Source: Adineta ricciae (Eukaryota > Rotifera > Eurotatoria > Adinetida > Adinetidae). Taken from it: DNA of 64,000 nucleotides. The DNA lies in the NCBI GenBank assembly GCA_905250025.1, contig CAJNOJ010000252.1:62001-126000 (forward strand), in the 5' to 3' direction. Positions within the stretch are counted from its first letter, which is position 1. Every line of letters starts with the position of its first letter. Shown in pieces: positions 9,071 through 61,406 of this stretch. The notes beneath the pieces are model-generated. The model was not told the origin of the DNA and ran no database searches. It worked only from the letters and a program-made list of their open reading frames with translations. Position numbers and translations under genes: made by a program.

Positions 9071-12000
9071 ATATATAAGTAAACAAATGTACTTTCTATA
9101 TGAATTTCTTATGACTTTATAATCGATGAGTAGGAAGAATTTCAAATTGAAATACAAGTGAAAAATCCCATGACGAAAGAAAATTTCCAAGCATTTCTCT
9201 CACCGTTCAATAACGTATGAACGGCGCATTAATTTATGTATGGGAAAAACACAGTAAAATTGGAAAAAAACAAGGGAGAAAACCCATTTTAGCGCATTTA
9301 AAATGCCACGGAATGGATGCGAATGCATCAAAACATCGAGAAGTGAGTATAAACAAATTATTACCAAGAGTGAACAATAGAAATTAACTCTTGACATTTA
9401 ATAACAATATTTTTTTGGAATAGTTCCTACTAAATTACATTTTATTTTTACTTTTTTTAAAACTTCAGATTACAATATGTTTGAAGATACTGATGATAAC
9501 GATAGTTCAAAACAATCGATTCAAGCATTCTACTCGCATCTGGATTCAACCACCTGTGAACAGATTGTGGGAAAACTTCGAGCAAAAAATTTTACTATTT
9601 CGACACATGAACTCCATAAAGAGAACGAAGATCGAGAAATAATTTTTGACAACATATATGAAAATTCGCGCAAGGTATCCGTTGTTCTCGTCTTTCTTTC
9701 TACAAGCTTTTCGCAATCAAAATCTTCTAATACAATATTTTACTTATCGTCCTCGAGCGGAATACCGTTACTTTCTTTGATTATCGAAAAAGATTTTGAA
9801 CCCGTAGAAGAACTTGGTGTACTAGTTGCAAGGTACGGATACGTGCGATGGTCTGATGATCCGGAAGTCGCTTCTTCTATTGACGATGTTGAGAAACAAA
9901 TTCGTGAATTGATTCCACCACATATTCCAACAAAGTCAGATTGTGATGTTCTGGCAACGCTCGATTCCATTCTTGATATCCTCAACGAAGAAGATAATTC
10001 AAAAGTAGATATTGATGAAATCTGTCAGTCGCTTTGTGTAACTCTTAAGTCAACGAAAGAGAATATTGAAGATCCAAAACAATTATTGCCTATTGCTGTC
10101 GAAGTGTTTCTTCGATACAACCTGATTATCGGTAAAAATGATGATCATTTTATCAAGCTTAGCAAAGATATAGGCTCAGAAATAGATTCCTTTCTCCAGA
10201 AGTCTTTACTTGATGCCGAAAAACATGATCCATTTGGTGAGGATCACAAACGAGCTCAAATGACATTTTCACGAGTGTTTAATTCGTTAGCGACGTTTCC
10301 AACAACGATTTACTTTCTGGATAAAGGCTTTATGTTGAAAAATAGCAACCATGCACGCATTCTTTTTTGGGCTGCACGAATTCTCTTAATCGCCTCTTGT
10401 AGACGACTGTTCAATACTGAACAAGATGCCGTTAAATTTCCTCAACAGCAGATCGTTCTTCAGATGTGGTTGAAATATGTCGATGAGAATACACAAAGTT
10501 TTAACTATACTAATCTTATACCTATGCTATTGGCAATTTTTCAGAACTTATCGGCTAATGTTGGTCTGGTGCCGCTCTTTGTAGATGCATGCTTTCCATC
10601 GACAGTTGTGAGTTGGTTATCATCGATAACTTGGATGTTAAATGATAAACTGCAACTTATTCCGTTGACTATCATTTATAATTTTGCTCGACATAAAAGC
10701 GGAGTTGATGCTCTAAACCAGTTGGGAACTATCGAAATACTGCAGATACGTCAACCCTTTTTCAAGAGTAACACAGCTCGTCCAGATGCCAATACCTTAT
10801 ATCATATTACTCTAGCTTTGCTCTATAAGCCAGAAAACATTAATCATGAATCAGTGGAAATTGAAGCAATCCTTAAAGAGCTTCTGTCAAAAACATTATT
10901 CACTTTTCAAGATCCAAAGCTAACGTACGGTATACTTCCTTTGAGAGAATTTTTTCTAGCATTCAATATATTATTTATTAATGAAGAACTCATTACAAAG
11001 ACTTTAGAACAAACAGTCGACGGTAAATCTATTGATGCGAATTTTTTTATGGATATGTTCACAAATACTCTCAAAGAAGATATTCTCGCCCAAACACTTT
11101 TATTAAATATTATGTATCGGATTACATCAACAAAGAGCTTCAGGCATCAAGTCAAGGAAAATCATGTATTCGTGAATACTCTCAAAAAGTTGAAGAGTAA
11201 AAGTATGAAAAACATTTACTTACCGAGATACACAGTAGATTTATTAACTGCTGTAAATGGCATTTTGCGAAATCTTAATATGAAAGAACAAAGTTCAACA
11301 GACAAGTCGGTAAAGATGAAAGTATTTTCTAACCAATCAAATTCTATTAAAAAGAAAGTAATGATCAGCTATAGTCACCAAAACAAAGGATTTTGCAAGG
11401 CTTTGTCGAGCAAATTAGAAGAGGATTCACAGCTGAGCATTTGGGCAGATTGGAAAAGATCGGGTCACAATTATGCATGGAAGGATATTGGCACAAATAT
11501 GGACAAAGCCGACGTGATCATTTGCATCGTAACACAGGACTATGTAGGCAGTCAGAACTGTATGTGCGAGTTTCGATATGCGATTGAAGATTTAGATATG
11601 AAAAGTAAGAATGGATTGATCCCGATTCTAATCGGTAGAGATTATAAACTGCCAGGTCACGTGGCTATTCCAATGAAAGGACCTGATTATATTCGATTCA
11701 ATGCTTACAAAGGTTTTGATATGGAAGTAGCTCCATCTACTCAAGATGAGTCCTTTACGAGCAAGTGTCAAGCAGTCCGTGATAGAATTTTATATGGTAG
11801 TAATGAACAAGACATAGAAAAAGACAAGACAGTAGTTTCCAAGACTGATGACAATAAAACAAATACCATCGAACCAAAGATTGTCACTGCGCCAACAAAA
11901 CCAGTTCATGAATGGACAGAACAAGACATTGCTCAGTGGCTTGCAAGTATTCCAGTGCCGCACGAACTTACTGCATTGTGTAAATTTCAATCTGTCGAAG

Positions 12001-12251
12001 AACTTCTGGATTATGCACACGATTTCAAAGTCAATGAAACTATTATTTATGTTGCTCTCAAAGATGAATTTAAAGATAAATATGGATCCACTTTACAAAG
12101 AAAGCACTATTTATCTCTGAAAAATGCATTTGAACAGTTATTGGTCGATAACCAATCTAAAGATGAACTTAACGTCCAAAAATCTTCTCAAACACAAACT
12201 AATACAATAACATCACGTTCTTGTATGCTAATGTAGTGCTTGACGACGAAT
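9071..12251 (+). repeat. Tandem segmental duplication, unit 1 (TIR gene)
   Basis: About 3.2 kb including the promoter region (TATATATAAG near 9071), a 5' leader with a probable intron (GTGAGT at 9343 to CTTCAG at 9468, 126 nt) and the whole TIR gene. It matches about 15634-18857 in direct orientation, and the two coding regions have exactly the same length. The units are separated by about 3.4 kb holding a hAT remnant and a repeat block. Confidence 0.9.
9477..12236 (+). CDS. TIR-SAM protein with N-terminal degenerate TIR and CaaX end
   Basis: Single 919-codon exon. In order: residues 12-135 look like a degenerate TIR fold (AFYSHLDSTTCEQI, strand VSVVLVFLSTSFS) without the catalytic Glu motif; residues about 150-600 are helical and armadillo-like; residues about 624-770 form a clear TIR domain (VMISYSHQNKGFCKALS, ADVIICIVTQDYV, CMCEFRYAIE) whose Glu698 sits where NADase TIRs carry the catalytic Glu; residues about 809-885 form a SAM-like domain (WTEQDIAQWLASI); the last four residues, CMLM, fit a prenylation (CaaX) box. 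TIR plus SAM recalls SARM1, an NAD-cleaving axon-death and immunity protein, but here the order is TIR-helical-TIR-SAM, not ARM-SAM-TIR. The ATG at 9477 follows a CTTCAG acceptor at 9468; an ATG at 9313 would be out of frame. NADase activity and membrane anchoring are inference. Confidence 0.88.
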   Translation: MFEDTDDNDSSKQSIQAFYSHLDSTTCEQIVGKLRAKNFTISTHELHKENEDREIIFDNIYENSRKVSVVLVFLSTSFSQSKSSNTIFYLSSSSGIPLLSLIIEKDFEPVEELGVLVARYGYVRWSDDPEVASSIDDVEKQIRELIPPHIPTKSDCDVLATLDSILDILNEEDNSKVDIDEICQSLCVTLKSTKENIEDPKQLLPIAVEVFLRYNLIIGKNDDHFIKLSKDIGSEIDSFLQKSLLDAEKHDPFGEDHKRAQMTFSRVFNSLATFPTTIYFLDKGFMLKNSNHARILFWAARILLIASCRRLFNTEQDAVKFPQQQIVLQMWLKYVDENTQSFNYTNLIPMLLAIFQNLSANVGLVPLFVDACFPSTVVSWLSSITWMLNDKLQLIPLTIIYNFARHKSGVDALNQLGTIEILQIRQPFFKSNTARPDANTLYHITLALLYKPENINHESVEIEAILKELLSKTLFTFQDPKLTYGILPLREFFLAFNILFINEELITKTLEQTVDGKSIDANFFMDMFTNTLKEDILAQTLLLNIMYRITSTKSFRHQVKENHVFVNTLKKLKSKSMKNIYLPRYTVDLLTAVNGILRNLNMKEQSSTDKSVKMKVFSNQSNSIKKKVMISYSHQNKGFCKALSSKLEEDSQLSIWADWKRSGHNYAWKDIGTNMDKADVIICIVTQDYVGSQNCMCEFRYAIEDLDMKSKNGLIPILIGRDYKLPGHVAIPMKGPDYIRFNAYKGFDMEVAPSTQDESFTSKCQAVRDRILYGSNEQDIEKDKTVVSKTDDNKTNTIEPKIVTAPTKPVHEWTEQDIAQWLASIPVPHELTALCKFQSVEELLDYAHDFKVNETIIYVALKDEFKDKYGSTLQRKHYLSLKNAFEQLLVDNQSKDELNVQKSSQTQTNTITSRSCMLM

Positions 12252-15633: not shown

Positions 15634-18600
15634 TATATATAAGTAAACAAATGTACTTTCTTAATAAAACAATGCCATAGAGACATAAGTGGGCAATCAA
15701 TACATGAATTGCTTATGACTTTATGATCGATAAGTAGGAAGAATTTTAAATTGAAATACAAGTGAAAAATCCCATGACAAAAGAAAATTTCCAAGCATTT
15801 CTCTCGCCGTTCAATAACATATGAACGGTGCAACACTTTATGTATGGGAAAAACACAGTAAAATTGGAAAAAAAACAAGGGAGAAAACCCATTTTAGCGC
15901 ATTTAAAATGCTGCGGAATGAACGGGAATGCATCAAAACATCGAGAAGTGAGTATAAACAAATTATTACCAAGAGAGAAGAATAGAAATTAACTCTTGAC
16001 ATTTAATAACAATATTTTTTTGAAATAGTTCCTACTAAATTACATTTTATTTTTACTTTTTTTAAAACTTCAGATTACAATATGTTTGAAGATACTGATG
16101 ATAACGATAGTTCAAAACAATCGATTCAAGCATTCTACTCGCATCTGGATTCAACCACCTGTGAACGGATTGTGGAAGAACTTCGAGCAAAAAATTTTAC
16201 TATTTCGACACATGAACTCCATAAAGAGAACGAAGTTCGAGAAACAATTTTTGAAATCATATTTAAAAATTTGCGCGATACATCCGTTGTTCTCGTCTTT
16301 CTTTCCACAAACTTTTCCCTATTAGAATCTTCTAATCTAATATTCTACTTATCGTCCTCGGACGGAACACCGTTACTTTCTTTGATTATTGAAAAAGATT
16401 TTGAACCCGTGGACGAACTTGGTGTACTAGTTGCAAGGTACGCATACGTGCGATGGTCTGGTGATCTGGAAGTCGCTTCTTTTATTGACGATGTTGAGAA
16501 ACAAATTCGTGAATTGATTTCACCACATATTCCAACAAAGCCAGATTGTGATGTTCTGGCAAAGCTCGATTCCATTCTTGATATCCTCGACGAAGAAGAT
16601 AATTCAAAAGTAAATATTGATGAAATCTGTCAGTCGCTTTGTGTAACTCTTAAGTCAACGAAAGAGAATATTGAAGATCCAAAACAATTATTGCCTATCG
16701 CTGTTGAAGTGTTCCTTCGATACAACCTGATTATCGGTAAAAATGATGATCCTTTTATCAAGCTTAGCGAAGATATAGACTCAGAAATAGATTCCTTTCT
16801 CCAGAAGTCTTTACTCGATGCCGAAAAACATGATCCATTTGGTGACGATCACAAACGAGCTCAAATGACATTTTCACGAGTGTTTAACTCGTTAGCAACG
16901 TTTCCAACAACAATTTACTTTCTGGATAAAGGCTTTATGTTAAAAAATAGCAAGCATGCACGCATTCTATTTTGGGCTGCAAAAATTCTCTTAATCGCTT
17001 CTACTAGACGACTGTTCAATACTGAACAAGATGCCGTTAAATTTCCTCAACAGCAGATTGTTCTTCAGATGTGGTTGAAATATGTCGATGAGAATACACA
17101 GAGTTTTTACTATACTAATCTTATACCTATGCTATTAACAATTTTTCAGAACTTATCGGCTAACGTTGGTCTGGTGCCGCCCTTTGTAGATGCATGCTTT
17201 CCACCGACAGTTGTGAGTTGGTTATCGTCGATAAACTGGATGTTGAATAATGAATTGCAACTCTTTCCGTTGTCTATCATTTATAATTTAGCTCGACATA
17301 ATAGGGGAGTTAATGCTCTAAACCAGTTGGGAGCTATATAAGTACTGCAAAGACAACAACGCTTTTTTGCAAAGAACAAAAATCGTGCAGATGCTGACAC
17401 CTTATATTATAATACTCTAGCTTTGCTCTATAAGCCAGAAAACGTTCATGATGAAGCAGTGGAAATTGAACCAATCCTTAAGCAGCTTCTTTCGAAAACA
17501 CTCTCCGCTTTTCGAGATCCAAAGTTAACTTACGGTACACTTCATCTGAGAGAATTTTTTCTAGCATTCAATATATTATTTATTAATGAAGAACTCATTA
17601 CAAAGACTTTAAAACAAACAGTCGATGGTAAATCGATTGATGCGAATTTCTTTATGGATATGTTCACAAGTACTCTCAAAGAAGATATTCTCGCCCAAAC
17701 ACTTTTATTAAATATTATGTATCGAATTACATCAACAAAGAGCTTCAAGCACCAAATCAAGGAAAATCATGTATCCATGAATACTCTCAAAAAGTTGAAG
17801 AGTAAAAGTATGAAAAACATTTACTTACCGAGATACACAGTAGATTTATTGACTGCTGTAAATGGCATTTTGCGAAATCTTAATATGAAAGAACAAAGTT
17901 CAACAAACAAGCCGGAAAAGAAGGAAGCATTTTCTAATCAGTCGAATTTGATTAAAAAGAAAGTAATGATCAGCTATAGTCACCAAAATAGCGGATTTTG
18001 CAAGACTTTATCGAGCAAATTAGAAGAAGATTCACAGCTGAGTATTTGGACAGATTCGAAAAGATCAGGTCACAACTACGTATGGAAGGATATTGCCACA
18101 GCTATGGATAATGCTGACGTAATCATTTGCATCGTAACACAGGACTATGTAGGCAGTGAGAGTTGTATGGGTGAATTTCGATATGCGATTGAAGATTTAG
18201 ATATGAAAAGTAAGAATGGATTGATCCCGATTCTAATCGGTAGAAATTATAAACTGCCAGGTCACGTGGCTATTCCAATGAAAGGACCTGATTATATTCG
18301 ATTCAATGCTTACAAAGGTTTTGATATGGAAGTAGCTCCATCTACTCAAGATGACTCCTTTACGAGCAAGTGTCAATCAGTCCGTGATTGAATTTTATAT
18401 GGTAGTATTGAACAAGACATAGAAAAAGCCAACACAGTAGTTTCCAAGACTGATGACAAGAAAACAAATACCATCGAATCAAAGATTGTCACTGCGCCAA
18501 CAAAACCAGTTCATGAATGGACAGAACAAGACATTGCTCAGTGGCTTGCAAGTATTCCAGTGCCGCACGAACTCACTGCATTGTATAAATTTCAATCTGT

Positions 18601-20398: not shown

Positions 20399-20730
20399 AG
20401 AATGGTGATAGATATGTGCACAAAACCAAAATCATGCATCTCGATGGTGCTCTTGTTATATATTGCTTCAAGCAATCTTTGTGAAAACAGTTTCTATGTG
20501 TTGACAAAAGCAGCAAAAAGGCTACTTACTTTGTGAGGAATAAAAAATATGGAAAGAGAGTGACAGAACGCACAAAAGTGTGTCATCATTCAATAGAAGT
20601 TTCTTTTCTGATTCCACACTGGGTGAAAGCAGCCGATATAATAGGGTTTTTTCCCACTGTGAATGCCAGCTGTTTGTATATATAATTGCTAAAACATTAG
20701 AGACTAGCTTTCATCGAGCACATTTTGCTT
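20399..20730. other. Upstream region of alpha-kinase gene
   Basis: No gene seen. A frame at 20580-20786 overlaps the next gene in another phase and shows no motif. The next gene's promoter and leader presumably lie here. Confidence 0.45.
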
Positions 20731-22797
20731 ATGAATCAATCAAGTTTAATTTCATCATCAACGATAGAATCAACCAATTCCAGTAGTGGAACGTTGAAGG
20801 ATACAGTTGATTCGATTCGTCTTAAAAAGAATGCATCGCGCAATTCCTTAGCAAGTATTGACTGGAATGTCGAAACATCAGATTCTGCTATTGATTTCGA
20901 TATCGAAAGCCTTGACAAACAATTTCAACAACTATCGTTGGACTTTAAACACAGCATGCAAGACCTACGCAATGATCCACATAATGAAACGATACGCAAG
21001 AAAGTTAAAGCAACTATGGAAGATCTATCGCGTATTAAAACATGGTCGTCTTTACTAAAGACAGAGGAGGGATTTGCTATTGTTAAAGAAGCGATGTTAC
21101 AACGGCGTAGAAACGAAGTTAATCAACGGAAATATGAAATTGATGAAGTTCTTAAGTTAACCAAAGCTCAATCGACTGTTGATGTTTGTTTCCTAATGGA
21201 TTGTACCGGTAGCATGGGATGCTATATTGATGCAACCAAAACACAAATTGGTCAACTTACCGATACAATCAGTAAATTATATGATACAACACCTCGTCTG
21301 GCCTTTATTGGATATCGTGATATCGATGAAAGCATTGAACAACTCGATTTTACTGATGATGTCGATGCGTTTAAAATGTTTTTGAATCAAGTAAAAGCAA
21401 CAGGTGGTCATGATACGTGTGAAGACGTGTTTAGTAAGAATACACATTTTCTGTCAATATTTTTCATGTCATTGTGAATTCTATCTTATTTAGGCGGATT
21501 AGAAATCATTCCAACACTTACATGGTCCAATTCCAATCGTCTATTGATTCATATATGCGATGCCCCTTGTCATGGACGTGATTATTATAAATCACAAGAT
21601 TCAATAAGTGATACATATCCCAAGGGTGATCCGAAGAATCGAGAACTTTCAAAACTGTTATTGGACATTAAACGGTTAAAAGTTACATATTGTACTATTC
21701 AACTAAATGATTTCACCAAGCAAATGTTCGATGAATTTAGTTTCATATATGGAACAATATCCGAAATTCATGTGGAAAATCCAGCAGCTATGATAAAACG
21801 AGTTTGTCAAGAGACAAGTGACATCATCATGAGTTCTATCAAGTCAACGATGTCGTCTTTCCGTTCGGCAAATAAGCAGACAAAGCCTTACACACTCTTG
21901 GGTAAAGAGCCGGACTGGAGTACGGTAGACATATTTGAAGTACACACCATCGAAGTCATTCCACCATTGAAAATGGAGGACCTATTTCGTTCTTTGTTTA
22001 TTGGAAGAGGTAGCGGTAAGATAAAAATTGCACCTCATCCTTTCGCACAAGGCTCACTGCGTTTTGCGTTTTATGGTCAACTTGCAAGCGATGGGTATGA
22101 GATGATGGACGTTGTTTTTAAAGAATTTAGTAGTTCTTCATCATATGATAATCAACTAGAAGTTTATCAAGAGCATCTCGAGATACAAGCGATTGCAAAG
22201 TTTTTAGCTGAACAATTCAATGATGAATTAAAACGTATCATTAAAAAACCAATCACAGTTGTTTACGCTGATGCTGACCTTGTTCAAGTGAAAAGTGATG
22301 AATCGAAAGTTTATCAAGTAGAAGCGCGTATGCATCAGGATTGGCATAAATGGAATAATAACAGTGGTGGAGTCTCCGTTACAGAATATTCAACAGTTTT
22401 ACAAGCATTTTCACATTGGACTCATCATATTACAGCAGCTCGTCTAATGGTCGTAGATCTACAAGGTGTGAAAGTTGACAATGCTTACTTACTAACTGAT
22501 CCAGCTATTCACTGTGATGATTTATTACGATTTAAACACACACGTACAAATTTTGGAGTCAAAGGCATGCGTGAATTTTTCCGTACGCATATATGCAGTG
22601 AAGTATGTTCGTTGCTTCAACTGCCGTTGCACGAAACGGAGCTATCTTCGTCTTTAAACAATAGTAACAATGGATTGGAAAGTTTTATAGTGTTAAATTC
22701 TATTGATGAATTAGACGAAAAGACTGCTATTGTTGAAACCTATCCTGCGACTACCAAAGACTACTTTGTAACAAAGACATTTGAATACGTAGAATGA
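20731..22797 (+). CDS. vWA domain alpha-kinase (VwkA-like)
   Basis: Two exons, 20731-21433 and 21494-22797, with a 60-nt intron (GTAAGA...TTATTTAG). The model closes at 668 residues. Residues about 150-330 form a von Willebrand A-like domain with a MIDAS-type motif, D157-C-T-G-S161, and the typical ICDAPCHG segment just after the splice. Residues about 415-620 form an atypical alpha-kinase (MHCK/EF2K type), with VVFKEF (candidate ATP Lys), LMVVDLQGVK, LTDPAIH and TNFGVKGMREFFRTHICSEVC. The architecture matches Dictyostelium VwkA. It is predicted to be a cytosolic Ser/Thr kinase acting on coiled or helical substrates. The start is the first ATG in frame. There is no sign of decay. Confidence 0.92.
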
Positions 22798-25766: not shown

Positions 25767-27990
25767 ATGGCGTATGCACGACATCGAAGTAGTTCTCGTC
25801 GTAAATTGGCTTTGGTCATTGGAAATGGTGATTATGTGATGGGAAGGCCTTTGTTTAATACGAGAAATGATGCAAAGCAAATGGCAAATGTTCTAATAGA
25901 TCTCGGCTTTCTCATCTATGAGAATGAACCAAAACTCGATTTAACTTACGAGCAATTTTCAATAACAATAGCGAATTTTCTCTGTTCAGTTAAGCGGAAT
26001 GATTTGGTCTTATTTTATTTTGCTGGACATGGCATTCAGTGTGAGGTAAATAAATGTAAGAGCAATTTCTCTATCTATTGTTTTTTGCTGCAGGATCATA
26101 ATTATTTGATTCCAATTGATAACTTCAAAGAAGAAAATCACGATTTAATCGAATTGAGTGGAACAGATTTGAAAAGACGCGCAATTAATGCACAACGCTT
26201 CCTTAACGATCTCGATGACCGTGATCCGTTTACAGTTTTATTTTTCTTAGATTGTTGTCGAACATATCATTTAAGACAGGAAGAATCAGAAAGAAATTCA
26301 TCCCGAAATGCGTTCTCGACTCAAATTCATGGTCTAAAACCAATGTCTGTCAAAGCTGGATCATTAATTGCATTTGCTTGTGCACCGGGAACAACTGCGG
26401 ATGATGGAAATCAAAGAGAAAAGAATGGATTATTTACAAAACATCTTTTAAAACATCTTCCAACATCAAATGAAAGTATTTTTGGAGTACTGACAAATGT
26501 CTCGAAAGGAGTTGTTGAAGAATCAAATAAACAACAAATTCCACATCTCACTGTTGCAATGACAGAAAATATTTTCTTATTCGATCAGCGTCAAGGTAAA
26601 CATCATTTGGTTCGAAGAACACAGCAATCTGCATAAAGGGACGTACATTAGAGGAGTAGAACTCAACAGGCGGAATCAGTTGGATTGAAATTTCTTCAAT
26701 TGTAACTGATTCTACTAGCTGTATCACTGAGAAATCTCTATTCTGAGAGGATTTTTTTTCAAATTTCAATGAAAACTTTCTTCTTTTCGTTTTTAGGAAA
26801 TCTTTCAACATCAATAAATCATTTGTCAATATCAGTGGAAAAGAAATCTTCTTTAAACAACAAGACTTCGACAACATCTCGTGAGTTGATCTTATTCTAG
26901 AATTGAAATTCATTTGTTCCGGTCAAGGAATAGATCTTAACATATTGATCAAAAGACGATCGAATATGAGATCACCAAATCTGAGATTTGACTTTGGAGA
27001 ATTTTTTGTTGGCAATAGAACTAAGAAAACTTTCAACTTTTGTTTTAACTTTCAAATGATCTTTTACTTTTTTTCTCTTTTGTAGAAATCAAATGTAACC
27101 AATGGAGACGACAAGGAATCACTATCGCTGGAGGAAATGGTTCCGGAGACTGGTTAAATCAACTATCAATTCCTTTTGGAATTTTTTTCAACAAATATTC
27201 ACAAATTTTTGTTGCGGATCGGGGGAATCATCGAATTATGAAATGGGAACTAAATCATAATCAAGGAAAAGTTGTCGCTGGCGAAAACGGAAAAGGGAGA
27301 TGGATTAATCAATTGAATTATCCGACGGATATGATTGTTGACGAAGAGTATAACTCACTTATCATTTCTGATCATAGAAATAGAAGAGTGATACGATGGT
27401 GGAATGAAGATCAGCAAGAGATTCTTATTGACAATATTTCATGTTCTCGGATAGTGATGGACAAATTCGGATTTCTTTACGTTTCTGATGATGAGAAACA
27501 TGAAGTGAGAAGGTGGGAAATAAAAGCTAAAAGAAGAGAAGGAAAACTAGTTGCTGGTGGAAATGGACAAGGATATCGGCTTAATCAGCTCAATAATCCT
27601 AACTATGTCTTCGTTGATGATGAACAGTCTGTTTATGTTTCAGATTGTGGAAATGATCGTGTGATGAAATGGAGAAAAGATGCTGCGCAAGGAACTGTCG
27701 TTGCTGGTGGAAATGGTTGCGGAAGGAAGTTGAATCAACTGAATGGGTCTCAAGGGATCATAGTTGGTGAATTTGGGCAAGTTTTTGTTGCAGATAGTAA
27801 TAATCATCGAGTCACGTGTTGGAGTGAAGGAGCTGAAGAAGGGGAAATCATCATTGGTGGAAATGGGCGAGGAGACGAACCCAATCAATTGTGGAGTCCC
27901 AATGGTTTATCACTTGATAGTGAAGGCAACCTTTATGTTGTTGATAGTGGAAATCATCGAGTGCAGAGATTTGATGCAATTTGTGAATAA
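25767..27990 (+). CDS. Caspase-like peptidase fused to NHL propeller
   Basis: Proposed exons 25767-26045, 26094-26595, 26797-26880 and 27086-27990; the model closes at 589 residues. Intron 1 (48 nt, in phase, no stop) could be read through. Introns 2 (201 nt) and 3 (205 nt) have GTAAAC...TTTTTAG and GTGAGT...TTTGTAG ends. Residues 10-270 form a caspase-like p20 fold (LALVIGNGDYVMGRPLFNTRNDA). The catalytic His88 is in YFAGHGIQ and the Cys in FLDCCRTY (C148 by analogy with metacaspase and paracaspase DxC). A Ser/Thr-rich linker (about 277-305) leads to six NHL repeats (AGGNG-G--NQL, VFVADSNNHRV). If introns 2 and 3 are ignored, the caspase ends with a stop at 26636 and the NHL part is a separate gene. 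The fusion is preferred because every junction is in phase. Confidence 0.75.
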
Positions 27991-28917
27991 AAAAAGTTTA
28001 TAAAACAGGTCTAGACCAGTTGCTCGCAGAGCAAACTATTAGCATCATTATGAAGGAAATAATGAAATCAAGATTAGTTAAGTAAATCAAGACGATTTTA
28101 ACCGATTTCTTAGGAAAACTTTTTAACTAAATTTTAATACTGGTTATGCGTAGCGTGGGTAGAAGACGAAGCTGATATGGTCCCACTAAACCTGCGATAC
28201 CAGTGACTCTAATAATAATGAGCTCACTGAAGCTATACTGATCGACTGAATTATACTCAGTTCACAGGCATATGTATATTGGTCATAGCCCCTATTTTAG
28301 CGTGCTCAGTCGCGTATCGAACTGTAGAAGAACATGTCTATCAACGGATCACTCACACTTTACAGTCGTACTCGAGTAGTGCAACTTTCAAATCATTATG
28401 GTCGAAATATGAAACTTTTAAAAATTCTTTTTTCACTGAATCTAGTCGAAATCTTCCTGATTTACTTAACTAATCTTGATTCCAATTATTTCCTTCATAA
28501 TTTTGCTAATACTTTACTCTACGCGTAAATGTCCATACGAGCAACTGTCCGTTTCCCAAAACCGCGCTTCTAATAAATTATAGTTTTATATTTAATTACG
28601 AAAATATCTATAGATTCATTGTAAAACATCGAGAAATTGCTATGAATTTCGATTAAGGACTAAACTAACAACGATAACTCTGTTGAACTAGATACGAAAT
28701 TCATTAAGCAAGAAAAACATTTTACGGCAAATAAATTCGAAAAAGCAAAAATATCAAGCGAAGCATCAAGATTTTCTCTAAACTGTCTGTTGATTTCGAA
28801 ATAAAATTGAAATTGAATTTGACTGCCAATGTTTAGAACAGAAAGTTTGGAAATGATCTTTTTACGTTCAAAACACTTTTTAAAACTAGCTTCTCATTGG
28901 CAGCAGTTTTTACCGAG
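27991..28917. other. Intergenic, nothing recognised
   Basis: About 0.9 kb of AT-rich sequence. Overlapping frames at 28279-28528 show no family and no splice context. Confidence 0.5.
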
Positions 28918-28984: not shown

Positions 28985-30545
28985 GAATAGGAAACAATCT
29001 AAAATTACAATCGTGCGTAATGTATTAACACCCCGCATCGTCACCCTCAACGGCAGTTGATAAGTCGTAGCAAAGATTCAATAGATTTTTTGAATTGTTT
29101 TCTATAGAATTGTGATGGGACAACATACACGATAAATATCGTTACCGATGGGATAAATGAAATGAAATAGCCTGTCACCTATAAACTCGAATTATGAGAT
29201 GTTTTCACACATTCGGACATGAATGAAATAATCAAGCGAGGTATGGACAAAATAACCAGAGTTATTGAACTAATGATAAGATGTTTATGTTCTTCGAGTT
29301 GTTGCCATAAATGCCGTTGATATGTTAATTGTCTTTGAGATGTTGCTCATTGACGAGCATTACGAAAGATAATAAATACAGCAGAGAACAGGTTCGCACA
29401 GAATGGACCAAGAAAATGAAAGAGCGAAATAAATACATTATATCTGTGAAGTGCAGGAGGATAATGAAGTATACACCATACGCGTTTGTTCATGTTTATC
29501 ATCGTATAATATGCGATACAATGGTTCGTGAATCATAGATATCGTAATAATCAATGGCAAAAAGATTATCAGGATTCGTGCAGTACGTTTGCTCGATTGC
29601 TTTTTGAAATAAACGCCTTTATATACAGTAACCCATCTTTCAAGCGCTACACAGGCATTAAACCAATTATCCGTATATAAGAACACTTTCAAAATGAATT
29701 CCAATAATCGACAACCGCCATGAAGAACAGATCGACTAACTGTTGGATTTATTTGAGTTAGAATAAGAAACCAGAACTTGGCTGTAAACATGGCTATTGT
29801 CAGAAGAGATGTAATAGATAATGCCAGGAGATACATTCCACATCCAGCTTCTCTTGATTCACGAACACGGAATGTCAAAATACTATTCACCACACCGGTA
29901 ACAAACATGATTAATGTAAATGCTGAACACCATTTGATTACATTAGTTTGACCGTTCATCGTTGCATTTGTAAAATATCATCACGTGTCAGTCCAATACC
30001 TTTTGCATAAAACTGACAACGATCACCAAAGAAACAATCCGTACAATTGCAAAACGTTGCCAATGGACACATCGAACCATCACTTAAACATTGTGCTCCA
30101 TTCAAACAATACGTCGTATGTTGACACACTGAAAGAATGTGCTGAAATTTGAAACAATTAGCATGTCGCTCAAGAGTGCATAGACACATGTACGAATCAT
30201 CAACGAAACACATTAAATGAAGATGAACTTGACATCGTTGAATTGGAGGTAAATGCCTCAATCGAGGATTCAGAACTTCGTTCACTTGTGCACATCGTTG
30301 AGCACGACCAATTGAACTACTAGTAGAAACATTAACAGCATGGGACGTATGAAGAGAAGCAAAGTAATAATTATCATCAATTCTCACGAAAACCGATTGA
30401 AAAGTATTTGGAGTATATATATGGTTGCAGTATGTTGAAATATCTTAAGCTTTTGTGAGATCATATAGAGTTTGGTTTGATCAAAACTGTTTGGAGAATG
30501 TAAAGCTTGAATACAACTTTCCTCATTCTCAGTCTCACCCTAACT
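28985..30545 (-). pseudogene. EGF-like 7TM receptor, decayed copy 1
   Basis: Minus-strand remnant of the bdelloid EGF-7TM receptor family. 30545-29960 encodes an extracellular region rich in Cys (CQVHLHLMCFVDDSYMCLC, CLNGAQCLSDGSMCPLATFC, CFFGDRCQF, which is EGF-like). About 29959-29320 encodes transmembrane helices 1-5 (FTLIMFVTGVVNSIL, GCGMYLLALSITSLL, NACVALERWVTVYKG), and about 29320-28990 helices 6-7 (HKHLIISSITLVILSIPRLI). Lesions: a deletion and stop near 29955 between the EGF part and TM1, a one-base insertion near 29490, and a TAG near 29192 where copy 2 reads Tyr. Ligand unknown. Copy 2 has other lesions. Confidence 0.85.
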
Positions 30546-31150
30546 CGAAAAAAATATGCAAGTAACATAATGAACACTTTATTTTACTAAGGGTGAAGTA
30601 TAATATCAACATAAAACTTATCACAAATATACTTTTATTCAATTTAGATTTCTCACATCTCCGGTGGAAGAACAAGAAAAGTTTATTTGTCTCAGAAATA
30701 ATAACCCAGATGGTATTCTTCGGTAAAACTGACGTTTAAACGATAAAATCTTATCGTGAGAGTGAGTGCGTGAATGAATATTCGTATTTATACGAATCAC
30801 ATCTATGTACCCTTATAGATATGTATTGAGAATTCAGAGAAGAAAAGTAAAGAATCTTCTCATTTTAACATATGCACAGCAAAACTGATTTTGAAATCAT
30901 TATACAATGGAACTTAGCTTTGATTCTTCGCATTTTTTATGATCGTGATATTTGTTTGAATTTTACGCCTAATTCATTGATCAATACTTATTTGAGGAGT
31001 AAAAAGTAGCAGCATAGAGATTCTTTCACATTCTCCGTATGAATCATTGTAATTGTGTAAGAACGACAGCAAATTATGCATTTTCTTCTATTTGCTCTAT
31101 ATAAAAGATGTTATTGCACAAGTGTAAGTCAGTCATATTGTGCGAAGAAT
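30546..31150. other. Divergent intergenic region
   Basis: Between the minus-strand receptor remnant and the plus-strand DUF4291 gene. It contains a 189-base segment (30760-30948) absent from copy 2 and flanked by ATCGTGA repeats. No gene seen, although frames upstream of 31151 could add a short N-terminal extension to the next gene. Confidence 0.5.
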
Positions 31151-31922
31151 ATGGATTGGCTGGCTCATTACGAGGCAAATACAGAATTATATGTCGATGC
31201 ACAGCGTCGATGGCCAAGTCGACGAAGTCGACCGGGCGGAAAATGGATCTTAGCATCTTTTGATGACGAATCAGTTATAGTTTACCAAGCTTATAATGAT
31301 GATATTGCAAAATATGCATGTGAAAATGGTCGCTTCGCTGGATGCCTAACTTATAACGAAAAACGAATGACTTGTGAGATTGAAGTACCTTTTTACTATG
31401 ATTTCAATGATGTCAAGATCTGTTTTAGGGATTAAAACAAGTTTTCTATGGATGATGTATCGATCAAATTGGGCATCACGTCCAAATCAACAACATATTT
31501 TAGCTATTTGGCTGCGTCGTTCAGCATTTGATAGTTATCTTGCTCGATCTAATAATTCAGATACTGATGAGTTACCTTCGGATTCAGCTGTACGTCTAAA
31601 AGGCCGGGTTCGTTTACAATGGGATCCTGATCATGATCCACAAGGTGAACCAACCATTGGTCGTCGAGCAATTCAATTAGGTTTAAGACAAGTGGAGAGC
31701 TTTCTCGATGGTCGTGATATTATTCGTATTGTTGATATTAGTTCATTCGTTCGAAATCAATATACGAACGCTGTTTTACCAAAACGACGCCGCGGTCATG
31801 ATCAGATTGATCAACTTCGTATTCCTGTTGTCAATATCTATGAACCTGAAGACGAACGAATTCGGCGACATATTCAATTAGATTTGGTGGAAATGACAAA
31901 CAACGTTAACATTTTTGAATAA
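31151..31922 (+). CDS. DUF4291 protein, copy 1
   Basis: Two exons, 31151-31373 and 31429-31922, with a 55-nt intron (GTGAGA...TTTTAG); the model closes at 238 residues. The splice restores the RMTWIKTSFLWMMYRSNWASRP motif, the signature of DUF4291. Before it come VIVYQAYNDDIAKYA and GRFAGC; after it, HILAIWLRRSAFDSYL. The family is widespread in bacteria and fungi and its biochemical role is not established, so none is assigned. The chosen start (MDWLAHYEAN) is the ATG conserved in both copies; upstream in-frame codons differ between copies. Intact, unlike the neighbouring receptor pseudogene. Confidence 0.9.
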
Positions 31923-53694: not shown

Positions 53695-55146
53695 TCATAT
53701 TTTCCATGCTTTGATCGTTCCATCATAAGATGCACTTAACAATTTCCCATCGTTGGTTAGCTCTAAAGCTTGTACGAAATTGTCATGCTGAAATTCTTGA
53801 ACGCAAATTCCACTTTGAATATTCCAAATTTTCACTTTGTTGTCTTCTCCTCCACTTGCGAGAAGCGTTTCGTTCACTTTCAAAATTGTTCGCACGATTC
53901 CATTATGTCCGTCAAGTTTTCTTGTTCGTATCTCATTGAAATCGCTTGATAATTCCCGAAGCATAATTTCACCTTGAAAATTGCCACTTACAAGTGTATT
54001 TGTCACTTGATCGTACATCAAACAAATTACCGAACAGTGATCGTAGAATGTTCTTATACATTTGTCATTTTTATAATCCCAGATCTTAATTGTTTGATCT
54101 TCGGAACACGAAGCAAGACAATCATCGTGAAGTTTGACAACTTGCCAAACCCAATTCGTATGCTCAATTAATTCGTGTTGGATTTGCCCGTTCAGATTAA
54201 CTATTTTAATCGAATTATCAGCTGCACTGGACGCAAAGAAATCTTTTGTAACTTTACAGATCGATAAGACAGTTGCTGAATGAACACTAAATGAATTTAT
54301 CAATTCAAACATCTGATTGTCATTTCGTTTCCAAATCTTCATTTGTTTATCTCTTGAACCTGATATAAAAGTTCTTTCATTCATTTTCTCCATACATAAT
54401 ATCGAATTCTGATGCCCTCTTAGCGTTTGACGACTATCTCCATTCATATTCCAAACATGAATTGTTTTATCTCGACCAGCACTTAACAAAGTATCATTAT
54501 CAAACACCAATATTTTCCAAATATAACCCAAATGTCCACTGAATGGCTCTTTCGAGCTTTCCTCCAATTCTTTTGTATATAAAATATCACTTCGCAAGAC
54601 AAATTTCTCTCCATTCGTAACTTCTTCTCCTTCATGCCATAAATTATGATCAAATATCATCACATCACCTTGTTGAGGAACATAACTTGCCCATATTTCA
54701 GTTGAATCCTTTGTTTTATAGAACAATGTCCGACCGCCTTCGAATTCCTCGGCATTGTTCAGATAAATCATAAACGTTAGTTTTGATTGTTTCGTCGTTG
54801 AAACATAATGAATTCCATCCAGATGTCGATGAAAGTATTGATTTGCATTGTATTTACAGAATCTGAGACGAGTATTTAATTCCGCTAAAGTCCAGTTTTC
54901 GATGTGATCGGGTAGATGAGATTTGATTTTGTCAAACAAATATGCAGATAAATGTGAATCATCGATGACTAATCGATCGTTGTTGCGATAATATGTTGGA
55001 TAGTTGGATATCGCTTTTTGGAAAGAAGCTTTTCTTTCAGCATTCAATAAATTGTCGCATTCTTCTTTTGTGAATAATGAACATACCAAAAAGCAGATTA
55101 AATCTGTATCTGGTAGTAGATTTCGAATTGTAATATTCGAAGACAT
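53695..55146 (-). CDS. 2OG-Fe(II) oxygenase fused to WD40 propeller
   Basis: Single minus-strand exon, 483 residues from the ATG at 55146. Residues 1-193 form a prolyl-4-hydroxylase-like 2-oxoglutarate/Fe(II) oxygenase. The iron ligands H108-x-D110 are in FHRHLDG, the distal H171 is in NLWHEGEE, and R185 (2OG binding) is in KFVLRSD. Residues about 203-483 hold seven WD40 repeats (GHLGYIWKILVFDNDTLLSA, GRDKTIHVWN, GSRDKQMKIWK, SEDQTIKIWD, GGEDNKVKIWN, SYDGTIKAWKI). It is predicted to hydroxylate a protein held by the propeller; the target is unknown. The absence of introns in a long gene, in a region of intron-bearing genes, would fit horizontal origin but does not prove it. Confidence 0.92.
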   Translation of the reverse strand: MSSNITIRNLLPDTDLICFLVCSLFTKEECDNLLNAERKASFQKAISNYPTYYRNNDRLVIDDSHLSAYLFDKIKSHLPDHIENWTLAELNTRLRFCKYNANQYFHRHLDGIHYVSTTKQSKLTFMIYLNNAEEFEGGRTLFYKTKDSTEIWASYVPQQGDVMIFDHNLWHEGEEVTNGEKFVLRSDILYTKELEESSKEPFSGHLGYIWKILVFDNDTLLSAGRDKTIHVWNMNGDSRQTLRGHQNSILCMEKMNERTFISGSRDKQMKIWKRNDNQMFELINSFSVHSATVLSICKVTKDFFASSAADNSIKIVNLNGQIQHELIEHTNWVWQVVKLHDDCLASCSEDQTIKIWDYKNDKCIRTFYDHCSVICLMYDQVTNTLVSGNFQGEIMLRELSSDFNEIRTRKLDGHNGIVRTILKVNETLLASGGEDNKVKIWNIQSGICVQEFQHDNFVQALELTNDGKLLSASYDGTIKAWKI

Positions 55147-56944
55147 TGCAGTCCAGTAAAACAATTTAATCTAAAATAACGACAATCGCGCATTTATTAA
55201 AATGAAATATATATCACGAATATAGTGCACAAAGTAGACTCAACCGTTTTTAATGTGATGATTGAAAAGCACTCGTATCTATACATTTTTATTTGAGTGA
55301 GAAGAAAAAAAATATTCGTATATGTACTATTACTGTTAGTAATTATAAACCACGTATACACATGAGTCAGTAGAGAGGACCGATCTAAATTTTCACCATC
55401 GTTTTGCTATTCTACGTCATTATTTACTTGACAAAAACGTTTGCCTAGTGATGAATTTAACAAGACTAGCGACCACTTTATGATTTTTCTTGTTAAAATG
55501 TATTGCTGCATGTTGTGAAATAACAACCATCGCACAACGAGAAAGAAAAAACACAGGTGCCTATATAGAAAGACGGTATTTCACTCGAATGGTTGCTTCG
55601 GATAGGGCTAGACTTCATGGGTAATTATACATCAGGATGATGTGTTCAGGTCGGATTGTATATTGTTAGTCGACACTGGATCGGTCCTAGACGATATGGG
55701 ATTTTACCGCATTAGCAAAGATTAAACGAACTCATGATCAAATTTGATGAAGATGAATAATCAAAAGTATGTCTCTAATCAAGACACATTGATAATAGGA
55801 TAAAAGTAGCTATTCTTTTCCTGAAAAGGGACACTATTTCGAACCTATATATGACTGTTCGCTGAATATGATTTACGCAATTCATACTTCAAGCCTGATT
55901 GAGTATCTGTCGACGAATGACATAACTACCATGTCATTCATTCTCAAGTTAAGAGTGGTGTGACTCAAATTCGTTTACCAACATATCTTACATTTGTTTG
56001 ACATTGGGATTTTATTCGAAGTATGGTTCAAGGAAATGGAATCAGGTCGTCTATCCAATCAAATTGATATTTTCAAACGTTGTGAAAGGAAGAATTGACT
56101 TCACTATGGACTAAACCAAGTGTATATGAAACTGAAAAGAGTTATTCTTGTGGAACTAATTCTATGTGTAGTTCACCAGTTATGATTGAAAATACAGTAA
56201 TACCTGAATTTCGAGTTAGTTGTTATATAATTTATCCTTTTTCTACAATCAACTTTCGAGTGTCTTTATCTTATTGCCTATATTGAAACCGTAGCATTGA
56301 AAATTGGACCATTTTTATTTCGACGTCTACGACATAGGATCAATCCTCTTCAATTGGCATCCCAATAAATGTATAACGACTTCAAATTGGTTTTAACACT
56401 TGATGTTGTGTTTGCGCTATACTATATAAAATAAATATTTGCCTGATAGAAATGCAATCTCGAAGATGCGATCTGAAATTGATAACCACCTATCTATATT
56501 CTCATGGGTACTTGATTATATTTCTGTGGATAGAGGAAGAGCATTGTTTCGATTAGATTCGAGATCTTTATGTTTCTGAATGTTACTTGCAATTTCACAG
56601 AATGCGAAGAAAGACAATTACATTCATTTGTGGGCGAAAGAATGTATCCAGATTAAAAATCAAGAATGGCGGATTAGAGTGAAGAAAAAATGAGTGAATA
56701 TGGTATTGATTTTTACATTTACACTGCCGTTTTGTTGGATCAACTTGCCGAGCAGGTGTAATATAATGATTGCTTTCAATGTGTGGAAGATAAGTCAAAA
56801 TCAAATGTCGTTTATCAGGCATGCGAGAAACCAGATCTGGTGTTTTTCATAGTATTAAATGCCATTGCATATAAATATCAAGTGAATACTGAATTTTCTA
56901 CTCATTTCTACCAAAAACAGATTTTGGATTCAAATATAACAAAC
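55147..56944. other. Intergenic with one family fragment
   Basis: About 1.8 kb. At about 56095-56213 (plus) a short frame reads SLWTKPSVYETEKSYSCGTN then SMCSSPVMIENTVIPEF, followed by a GT. This resembles the middle region of the membrane-protein family seen at 23-25 kb and 48 kb, so it is a further probable fragment. The rest shows nothing recognisable. Confidence 0.4.
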
Positions 56945-58779: not shown

Positions 58780-60210
58780 TTTAAAGAGTATCGAATAGGA
58801 AACAATCTAAAATTACAATCGTGCGTAATGTATTTACACCTCGCATCGTCACCCTCAGCGGCAGTTGATAAGTCGTAGCAAAGATTCTATAGAATTGTGA
58901 TGGGACAACATACACGATAAATATTGTTACCGATGGGATAAATGAAACGAAATAGCCTGTCACGTATAAACTTGAATTATGAGATGTTTTCACACATTCG
59001 GACATGAATGAAATAATCAAGCGAGGTATGGACAAAATAACCAGAGTTATTGAACTAATGATAAGATGTTTATGTTCTTCGAGTTGTTGCTCGTTGACGA
59101 GCACTACGAAAGATAATAAATACAGCAGGGAACAGGTTCGCACAGAATGGACCAAGAAAATGAAAGAGCGAAATAAATACATTATATCTGTGAAATGCAG
59201 GAGGATAATGAGGCATACACCATACGCGTTGTTCATGTTTATCGTCGTATAATACGCGATACAACGGTTCGTGAATCATAGATATCGTAATAATTAATGG
59301 CAAAAAGATTATCAGGATTCGTGCAGTACGTTTGCTTCTTGAAATAAACGCCTTTATACACAATAACCAATCTTTCAAGCGCTACACAAGCATTAAACCA
59401 ATTATCCGTATATAAGAACACTTTCAAAATGAATTCCAATAATCGACTAATTGTTGGATTCACTTGAGTTAAAATAAGAAACCAGAACTTGGCTGTAAAC
59501 ATGGCTATTGTCAGAAGAGATGTAATATATGATGCCAGGAGATACATTCCACATCCAACTTCTCTTGATTCACGAACACGGAATGTCAAAATACACAAAA
59601 TACTTGTTGCATTTGGCCGTATATCATAACGTAAAATATCATCAAGTGTCAGTTCAATACCATTTGCATAAAACTGGCAACGATCACCAAAGAAACAATC
59701 CGTACAATTGCAAAACGTTGCCAATGGACACATCGAACCATCACTTAAACATTGTGCTCCATTCAAACAATACGTCGTATGTTGACACACTGGGAGAACG
59801 TGCTGAAATTTGAAACAATTAGCATGTGTCGTTCAAGAGTGCATAGACACATGTACGAATCATCAACGAAACACGTTAAATGAAGATGAACTTGACATAT
59901 ACGATGATAATATTTGACTCGCTGAATTGGAGGTAAATGCCTCAATCGAGAATTCAGAAATTCGTTCACTTGGGAGCACGAACAATTGAACTACTAATAG
60001 AAACATTAATAGCATGGGACGTATTAAGAGAAGGAAAGTAATAATTATCATCAATTCTCACGAAAACCAATTGAAAAGTATTGTGAGTATATATGGTTAC
60101 AGTATGTTGAAATATCTTAAGCTTTTGTGAGATCATATAGAGTTTGGTTTGATCAAAACTGTTTGGAGAATGTAAAGCTTGAATACAACTTTCCTCATCC
60201 TCAGTCACAC
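58780..60210 (-). pseudogene. EGF-like 7TM receptor, decayed copy 2
   Basis: Homologue of 28985-30545. The EGF-like part (about 59970-59640) is followed by RYDIRPNA, which copy 1 lacks, but the region containing most of TM1 (about 80 bases in copy 1) is missing. Further lesions are an eight-base deletion near 59335, a 41-base deletion near 59085 (flanked by TGTTGC in copy 1), and a small deletion near 59975. Helices 6-7 are readable to the end (HKHLIISSITLVILSIPRLI, GYFVSFIPSVTIFIVYVV), without the TAG of copy 1. Neither copy can encode a full receptor. Confidence 0.85.
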
Positions 60211-60633
60211 CCTACCTCGAAAAACATATGCAAGTAACATAATGAACACTTTATTTTACTAATGCAAAGTATAATATCTACATGAAACCTATCACAAATA
60301 TACTTTTATTCACTTTAAATTTATCACGTCTCCGGTGGAAGAACAAGAAAAGTTCATTTGTCTCAGAAATAATAATCCAGATGGTATTCTTCGGTAAAAC
60401 TGACGCTCAAACGATAAAATCTTATCGTGATATTTGTTTGAATTTTACGTCTCATTCATTGATCAATACTTAATTGAGAAGTAAAAAGTAGCAGCATGGA
60501 GATTCTTTCACATTCTCCGTATGAATCATTGTAATTGCGTAAGAACGACAGCAAATTATGCATTTTCTTCTATTTGCTCTATATAAAAGATGTTATTGCA
60601 CAAAGTGTAAGTCAATCGTATTGTGCGAAGAAT

Positions 60634-61406
60634 ATGGATTGGCTGGCTCATTACGAGGCCAATACAGAATTATATGTCGATGCACAGCGTCGATGGCCAA
60701 GTCGACGAAGTCGACCGGGCGGAAAATGGATCTTAGCATCTTTTGATGATGAATCAGTTATAGTTTACCAAGCTTATAATGATGATATTGCAAAATATGC
60801 ATGTGAAAATGGTCGCTTCGCTGGATGCCTAACTTATAACGAAAAACGGATGACTTGTGAGATTGAAGTACTTTTTTTGCTATGATTTCAATGATGTCAA
60901 GATTTGTTTTAGGGATTAAAACGAGTTTTCTATGGATGATGTATCGATCAAATTGGGCATCACGTCCAAATCAACAACATATTTTAGCTATTTGGCTGCG
61001 TCGTTCAGCATTTGATAGTTATCTTGCTCGATCTAATAATTCAGATACTGATGAGTTACCTTCGGATTCAGCTGTACGTCTAAAAGGCCGGGTTCGTTTA
61101 CAATGGGATCCTGATCATGATCCACAAGGTGAACCAACCATTGGTCGTCGAGCAATTCAATTAGGTTTAAGACAAGTGGAGAGCTTTCTCGATGGTCGTG
61201 ATATTGTTCGTATTGTTGATATTAGTTCATTCGTTCGAAATCAATATACGAACGCTGTTTTACCAAAACGACGCCGCGGTCATGATCATATTGATCAACT
61301 TCGTATTCCTGTTGTCAATATTTATGAACCTGAAGACGAACGAATTCGGCGACATATTCAATTAGATTCGATTGAAATGACAAACAACGATAATATTTTT
61401 GAATAA
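60634..61406 (+). CDS. DUF4291 protein, copy 2
   Basis: Exons 60634-60856 and 60913-61406 with a 56-nt intron (GTGAGA...TTTTAG); the model closes at 238 residues, the same length as copy 1. It differs from copy 1 by only a few residues, for example HDHID for HDQID, RDIVRI for RDIIRI, and near the C-terminus LDSIEMTNNDN for LDLVEMTNNVN. The intron sequence also differs by a few bases, including a one-base length change, as expected for neutral sites. Intact, with the RMTWIKTSFLWMMYRSNW motif restored by splicing. Role unknown. Confidence 0.9.

Follow-up and report, generated by a model that had tools for sequence, protein, structure and literature searches.

The stretch of DNA analysed here, called the window throughout, comprises 64,000 nucleotides of the genome of the bdelloid rotifer Adineta ricciae (contig CAJNOJ010000252.1, positions 62,001 to 126,000), and it carries on its forward strand, at window positions 25767 to 27990, a gene that appears to join a caspase-like protease domain of the Peptidase_C14 (C14) family to an NHL beta-propeller. 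Its coding exons of 279, 502, 84 and 905 nucleotides add up to 1770 nucleotides and an open frame of 589 amino acids, and its three introns of 48, 201 and 205 nucleotides all have GT-AG ends and lie in phases 0, 1 and 1, which bears out the in-phase, four-exon structure proposed in an earlier note on this DNA. Exon 1 (25767-26045) encodes the N-terminus and the first part of the caspase (p20) domain, including D35 and the H88 of a GHG motif (26028-26030). It ends in phase 0, identically in five paralogs, and is followed by intron 1 (26046-26093), which is in phase and free of stop codons if retained and which is also present in the deposited models of five paralogs. The deposited models P0001, P0002, P0003, P0006, P0023 and P0138 splice out an intron at this position; that of P0032, with a different exon layout, does not. 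Exon 2 (26094-26595) completes the caspase domain and contributes D146 (26250-26252) and C148 (26256-26258), and the phase-1 intron 2 (26596-26796) holds a stop codon at 26634-26636 that would end the frame if left unspliced. Exon 3 (26797-26880), possibly a cassette exon, encodes a Ser/Thr/Lys-rich linker; after the phase-1 intron 3 (26881-27085), the propeller with its six blades and the stop codon is encoded by a single terminal exon, exon 4 (27086-27990). Rfam gave no match between window positions 22000 and 32000.

Judged by its sequence, the head of the window protein is a paracaspase-like C14 domain with a His/Cys dyad. The Pfam family PF00656 matches residues 12-251 at an expectation value (E) of 1.3e-36 and 126.9 bits (cut-off 21.4), covering positions 1-230 of the 233 in the profile, and the dyad that the earlier note had recognised is intact, with H88 in GHG and C148 in DCC (numbering as in that note). 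When the head was compared with solved caspase folds, MALT1/paracaspase ranked best. D35 and D197 align with MALT1 acids, in a weak alignment, and D146 is matched by motif only; all three, which we take to be the positions of the S1-pocket acids of MALT1, are conserved in the C14-NHL fusions. A Pfam scan with E up to 0.01 returned C14 and propeller families only and no death or Ig domain, so that the window protein is not a type 1 paracaspase (MALT1) by domain content; that type is defined by a protease accompanied by a death domain and Ig domains (PMC5978004). The propeller matches the NHL family at E 1.7e-22, with a weaker match to SGL. The six NHL repeats counted in the earlier note are recovered as six blades in an AlphaFold2 model of the deposited 561-residue form (mean predicted local distance difference test, pLDDT, 90.6; predicted template modelling score, pTM, 0.68), although by profile only two NHL stretches pass the cut-off alone. 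The last blade is closed by the N-terminal strand 272-276, as blades were assigned by reading the DSSP output of the model. Profile and six-bladed fold together identify an NHL propeller, and the nearest solved folds include the NHL domains of Thin, TRIM71 and TRIM2 and the designed Pizza proteins.

The deposited A. ricciae protein P0001 (561 residues) matches exons 1, 2 and 4 of the window letter for letter and is shorter than the four-exon product by 28 residues, the length of exon 3. This deposited form could be the mature one, with exon 3 unused, and the deposited A. ricciae paralogues P0002, P0003 and P0006 likewise lack such a linker. We regard this as unlikely, given that exon 3 is flanked by GT-AG splice sites and that its peptide aligns without a gap over all 28 residues to the linker of the A. 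vaga protein P0007 (score 47; 0 of 2000 shuffles as high). Against four other linkers the peptide gave no signal (117, 477, 992 and 1974 of 2000 shuffles as high). Because of the alignment to P0007, which also supports the linker exon of the earlier note, we favour a four-exon model in which exon 3 is perhaps alternative; the forms with and without it are both in frame, and both may therefore be made. This suggests that the deposited gene model misses a linker exon.

Several lines of evidence place the protease and the propeller in one putative gene, as the earlier note had predicted. C14 is spliced to NHL in the deposited models P0002, P0003, P0006, P0023 and P0032. Searches of the A. ricciae assembly itself (130.46 Mb, 1033 contigs) provided 40 loci, 20 picked from C14 hits (several of them for an adjacent NHL match) and 20 from NHL hits, and at 11 of the 40 a C14 domain immediately precedes an NHL stretch of the same orientation, L031 with its broken propeller frame included. 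The 20 C14-derived loci comprise these 11, two partial or broken cases (L040, L041), five without NHL and two with distant or decayed NHL pieces. By rough arithmetic, which assumes our own estimates of about 124 NHL and 60 C14 loci in the genome, chance would bring about 0.03 C14-NHL neighbours within 1 kb. Distances between the C14 domains, moreover, correlate with those between the NHL propellers of the 34 fusions in which both domains are sufficiently covered (Mantel r 0.676, a value attained in 0 of 2000 permutations). One could instead read the locus as a caspase gene that terminates with the stop codon at 26634-26636 and an independent propeller gene next to it, since the caspase frame is open to 26636 when introns 1 and 2 are retained. 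The deposited splicing and the recurrence of the C14-to-NHL order argue against this, as does the position of the first ATG in frame with the propeller: none occurs from 26596 up to 27238, and the one at 27238 lies inside blade 1, past the ring-closing strand. On the grounds of gene models, synteny and the missing start codon we rejected the two-gene reading, which is almost certainly wrong. Bacterial contamination was rejected as well, in view of the introns, of neighbouring frames that look animal-like to us and of the exact match to an A. ricciae protein.

The architecture is not confined to this locus. Three protein searches had 3264, 2993 and 536 matches, with 120 of each listed, and of the best 120 database matches 51 carry both C14 and NHL. 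This pair, for which the earlier note had proposed a search of bdelloid proteomes, occurs in many deposited proteins of Adineta and Rotaria; the fusions with an organism name among the matches listed come from A. ricciae, A. steineri, A. vaga and Rotaria species, and the combination is therefore at least as old as the split of the two genera, unless it arose twice. Two proteins, P0091 and P0119, are uninterrupted C14-NHL frames of 532 and 550 residues on short contigs and could be transcripts. We found no paper describing a C14-NHL protein among the matches listed in the open-access literature. The earlier note was not aware of a described animal caspase-NHL protein; such proteins have, however, been deposited and automatically named in several bdelloids. 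Independently of any immune function, then, there is a widespread caspase-NHL architecture for which we found no published description.

The propeller also occurs behind other heads. Among the best 120 matches the head is C14 in 47, C14 with LRR in four, C14 with an ADP-ribosyltransferase (ART) in one, a B-box-like finger in 33, ART in five and DED in three, and 27 have no assignment; by our reading, some of these 27 combine a Thr-rich stalk with a membrane helix, some have an EB-like cysteine module and some resemble secreted proteins of bacteria. A Pfam scan of ten proteins placed ART, LRR and C14 above the cut-offs and DED below them (E 5.8e-5 and 3.2e-4). Upstream of the 20 NHL-derived loci of the genome we found 14 B-box-like heads, one ART, one DED and, in four cases, none; at L125 an NHL fragment lies between the B-box-like match and the propeller. 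The B-box-like assignment is weak: of 21 members, nine match an ANCHR-like B-box, with E no better than 0.022, and three match zf-B_box, with E no better than 0.17. The helices predicted before the propeller in these relatives are of low confidence. A phase-1 intron leads into the propeller in 13 of the 13 deposited proteins that were mapped exactly, as it does into exon 4 of the window, and this holds across C14, ART, B-box-like, EB-like and truncated forms; P0023 has its propeller divided over three exons. Entry of the propeller exon in phase 1 behind varied heads, by which we would define a bdelloid family, is thus what is found, and the common junction would provide a ready means of head exchange. 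In a quick protein tree of the 111 of 120 propellers that cover at least 220 profile positions, the distribution of C14 needs 15 changes, four of them forced by starred branches. By DNA path length the window propeller lies nearest to B-box-like genes, and no starred branch groups it with them.

Some individual proteins extend this range. In P0019 of A. steineri two C14 stretches flank an ADP-ribosyltransferase, which represents another combination or a merged gene model. P0031 of A. vaga has, by our reading, an apparent membrane helix and a Thr-rich stalk before C14 and NHL and may be a membrane-anchored form. We read P0026, P0049, P0059, P0062 and P0072 as probably bacterial, with apparent signal peptides; they share a similar GGNGxG...NQL NHL blade, and the propeller itself may therefore come from bacteria. 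As to a bacterial donor of the ready-made fusion, no NHL open reading frame was present in the DNA fetched at the 80 loci kept out of at least 471 confirmed bacterial C14 relatives.

The variability of the propeller is concentrated on its top face, formed by the BC and DA loops. Codons were assigned to strands and loops by DSSP of the AlphaFold2 model, and the ratio of nonsynonymous to synonymous substitution rates (dN/dS) was estimated in 79 pairs (dS < 0.25) of 15 propeller exons of the genome that have no upstream C14 match. The ratio was 0.26-0.74 in strands, 0.35 and 0.65 in bottom loops and 0.79 and 1.11 in top loops. At 27 top-face motif sites (the D[xx]N of each blade and QL[xx]P[x]) it rose to 1.60 (site bootstrap 1.04-2.61), compared with 0.54 elsewhere, and in seven disjoint pairs it was 1.84 (1.14-3.14) versus 0.55 (one-sided binomial p 0.011). 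These sites had been defined from the consensus of C14 proteins, and the test in genes with other heads is therefore not circular. When no sites are preselected, the top loops, with 95 of the 295 codons, account for 22 of the 30 codons that vary most (Fisher 1.3e-6; none of 294 circular shifts gives as many). At the protein level, where members more than 97% alike were dropped (42 of 48 C14 and 32 of 33 B-box-like proteins kept), differences between the members of 12 disjoint C14 pairs affect 188 of 322 top-face sites (58%) and 534 of 3276 others (16%). A different pattern was seen between P0032 of A. ricciae and P0036 of A. steineri, compared within a set of 107 propellers covering at least 270 profile positions: 25 of the 27 top-face sites are unchanged, with differences at 60 of the 274 other sites, which is what an orthologue with an unchanged ligand would be expected to show.

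Together, these observations point to a receptor-protease gene whose propeller would recognise variable ligands as part of a modular repertoire, most likely for the recognition of non-self or pathogens, a reading to which we give a probability of about 0.5. Through the top face, different paralogs would bind different ligands, whether proteins or other molecules, and binding may gather, dimerise or free the protease heads, by analogy with MALT1 and TRIM proteins; the heads could then cut their substrate behind Arg or Lys residues. Entry in phase 1 would allow the propeller to join different heads, yielding the modular repertoire. Of the earlier note, the fusion, the linker and the dyad stand. 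Its sensor-effector idea gains indirect support from the variable top face of the propeller family, but on DNA the signal comes from relatives without a C14 head. More tentatively, bdelloids may possess a large repertoire for innate recognition built on single-exon NHL propellers with a positively selected top face and interchangeable phase-1 heads, of which the window gene would be a protease member. The heads exchanged in this way might include the paracaspase-like protease, ADP-ribosyltransferase, DED, the B-box-like finger and a membrane stalk, and such a repertoire could conceivably be an animal counterpart of the fungal NWD receptors without their NOD switch. It has long been asked how ancient asexuals such as bdelloids keep up with their parasites, and variable-face propellers with swappable heads would, if real, be a testable answer; with the protease fused directly to the sensor, signalling would take a path that is exceptionally short for an animal.

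A number of results weigh against this receptor reading or parts of it, and two further explanations draw on them. C148 is missing in 10 of the 46 fusions covered, and therefore not all fusions can cleave; the C14 and NHL domains share a nearest neighbour in only 10 of the 34 fusions compared. A DNA tree of 29 exons (the distinct ones among 31 full-length propeller exons from 41 loci, with 27 variable codons excluded) does not reject a single C14 clade (approximately unbiased test, p-AU 0.339), which leaves shuffling unproven for the C14 head. The variability within C14 proteins is partly circular, since the 27 sites were taken from the C14 consensus, and purifying selection is seen in the genome's three pairs of closely related C14-headed genes, also at these sites, with a dN/dS of 0.21 (interval 0-1.11) there. 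At BC loops the proportion of synonymous differences (pS) reaches 0.300, compared with 0.125 away from the 27 sites; this elevation may be a sign of gene conversion or of misalignment, and because of it the whole BC loops have a ratio below 1 in the 79 pairs. Hence the variable top face might reflect relaxed constraint and gene conversion between paralogues instead of selection for recognition, the more so as the lower bootstrap bounds barely exceed 1 and the seven disjoint pairs reach a p of only 0.011. Relaxation alone, however, predicts a ratio of 1 and not 1.6-1.8, and the variable codons are interspersed with conserved ones and lie mostly on one face; we consider this explanation quite improbable.

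The fusion could also be real and the propeller a fixed adaptor for substrate or localisation, as in TRIM-NHL proteins, in a housekeeping protease that senses no variable ligand. Purifying selection in the close C14 pairs and the top face that P0032 and P0036 keep across species while other sites change are compatible with such a role. So are published RNA-seq data (PMC11258130), in which fungal attack changes the expression of few C14 genes (18 down and 4 up in A. vaga, 8 down and 2 up in A. ricciae) and which thus far lend the immune reading no support. The large copy number, the strong top-face divergence in other C14 pairs and the varied heads of the family are harder to reconcile with a fixed adaptor, and conserved orthologues together with divergent paralogues fit receptors too. 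A fixed adaptor therefore seems doubtful to us, and immune-type recognition is tentatively ranked ahead of it.

The window protein resembles several known systems and differs from each of them. It shares with MALT1 and other paracaspases the best-ranked caspase fold and the dyad, has acidic residues at what may correspond to the S1-acid positions of MALT1, and differs in having a propeller after the protease and no death or Ig domain by Pfam. With TRIM-NHL proteins (TRIM2, TRIM71, Thin) it has the C-terminal six-bladed propeller in common, and its bdelloid relatives carry the weakly supported B-box-like zinc finger and predicted helices before it; in the window protein, unlike in these, a protease stands in front of the propeller, and Pfam finds no RING or B-box. 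Bacterial metacaspase-WD40 proteins, including metacaspase-NACHT-WD40 forms, are described in PMC3501461 and bear out the bacterial precedent cited in the earlier note; they combine a caspase-like protease with a beta-propeller of WD40 type, not NHL, a term absent from the main text of that paper. Fungal NOD-like receptors (Podospora NWD/HET) likewise have a positively selected propeller surface and differing N-terminal domains (PMC4986451), but they contain NACHT or NB-ARC with WD40. Pfam finds no such match in the window protein, which by analogy would act like the fungal NWD receptors but, having no NACHT, is not one of them. In bdelloids, Nowell et al. 2024 (PMC11258130) report an expansion to 101 C14 proteins in A. 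vaga and 69 in A. ricciae, the domain family to which the window gene also belongs; "NHL" and "propeller" do not occur in the main text of that paper. An expansion of NHL genes in A. vaga, with defence suggested among other roles, is reported in PMC3846280, and the main text of PMC10531068 contains no match to NHL.

Other features of the window include a second enzyme-propeller fusion on the reverse strand (53698-55170), where a 2OG-Fe(II) oxygenase (E 1e-13) and a WD40 propeller share one open frame. On the forward strand lie a frame of 943 residues with a TIR domain (9405-12233), a diverged neighbouring copy of it that is interrupted near 17341 (16010-18391), and two neighbouring frames that encode a VWA domain and then an alpha-kinase (20701-22794). 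Two very similar blocks about 29 kb apart (29438-31922 and 58781-61406) contain what we name G protein-coupled receptor-like frames with EGF-like cysteines on the reverse strand and a near-identical frame on the forward strand. Just 3' of the C14-NHL gene, at 28017-28139 and 28408-28531, there are inverted repeats (83% and 70% complementary) resembling those of miniature transposons.
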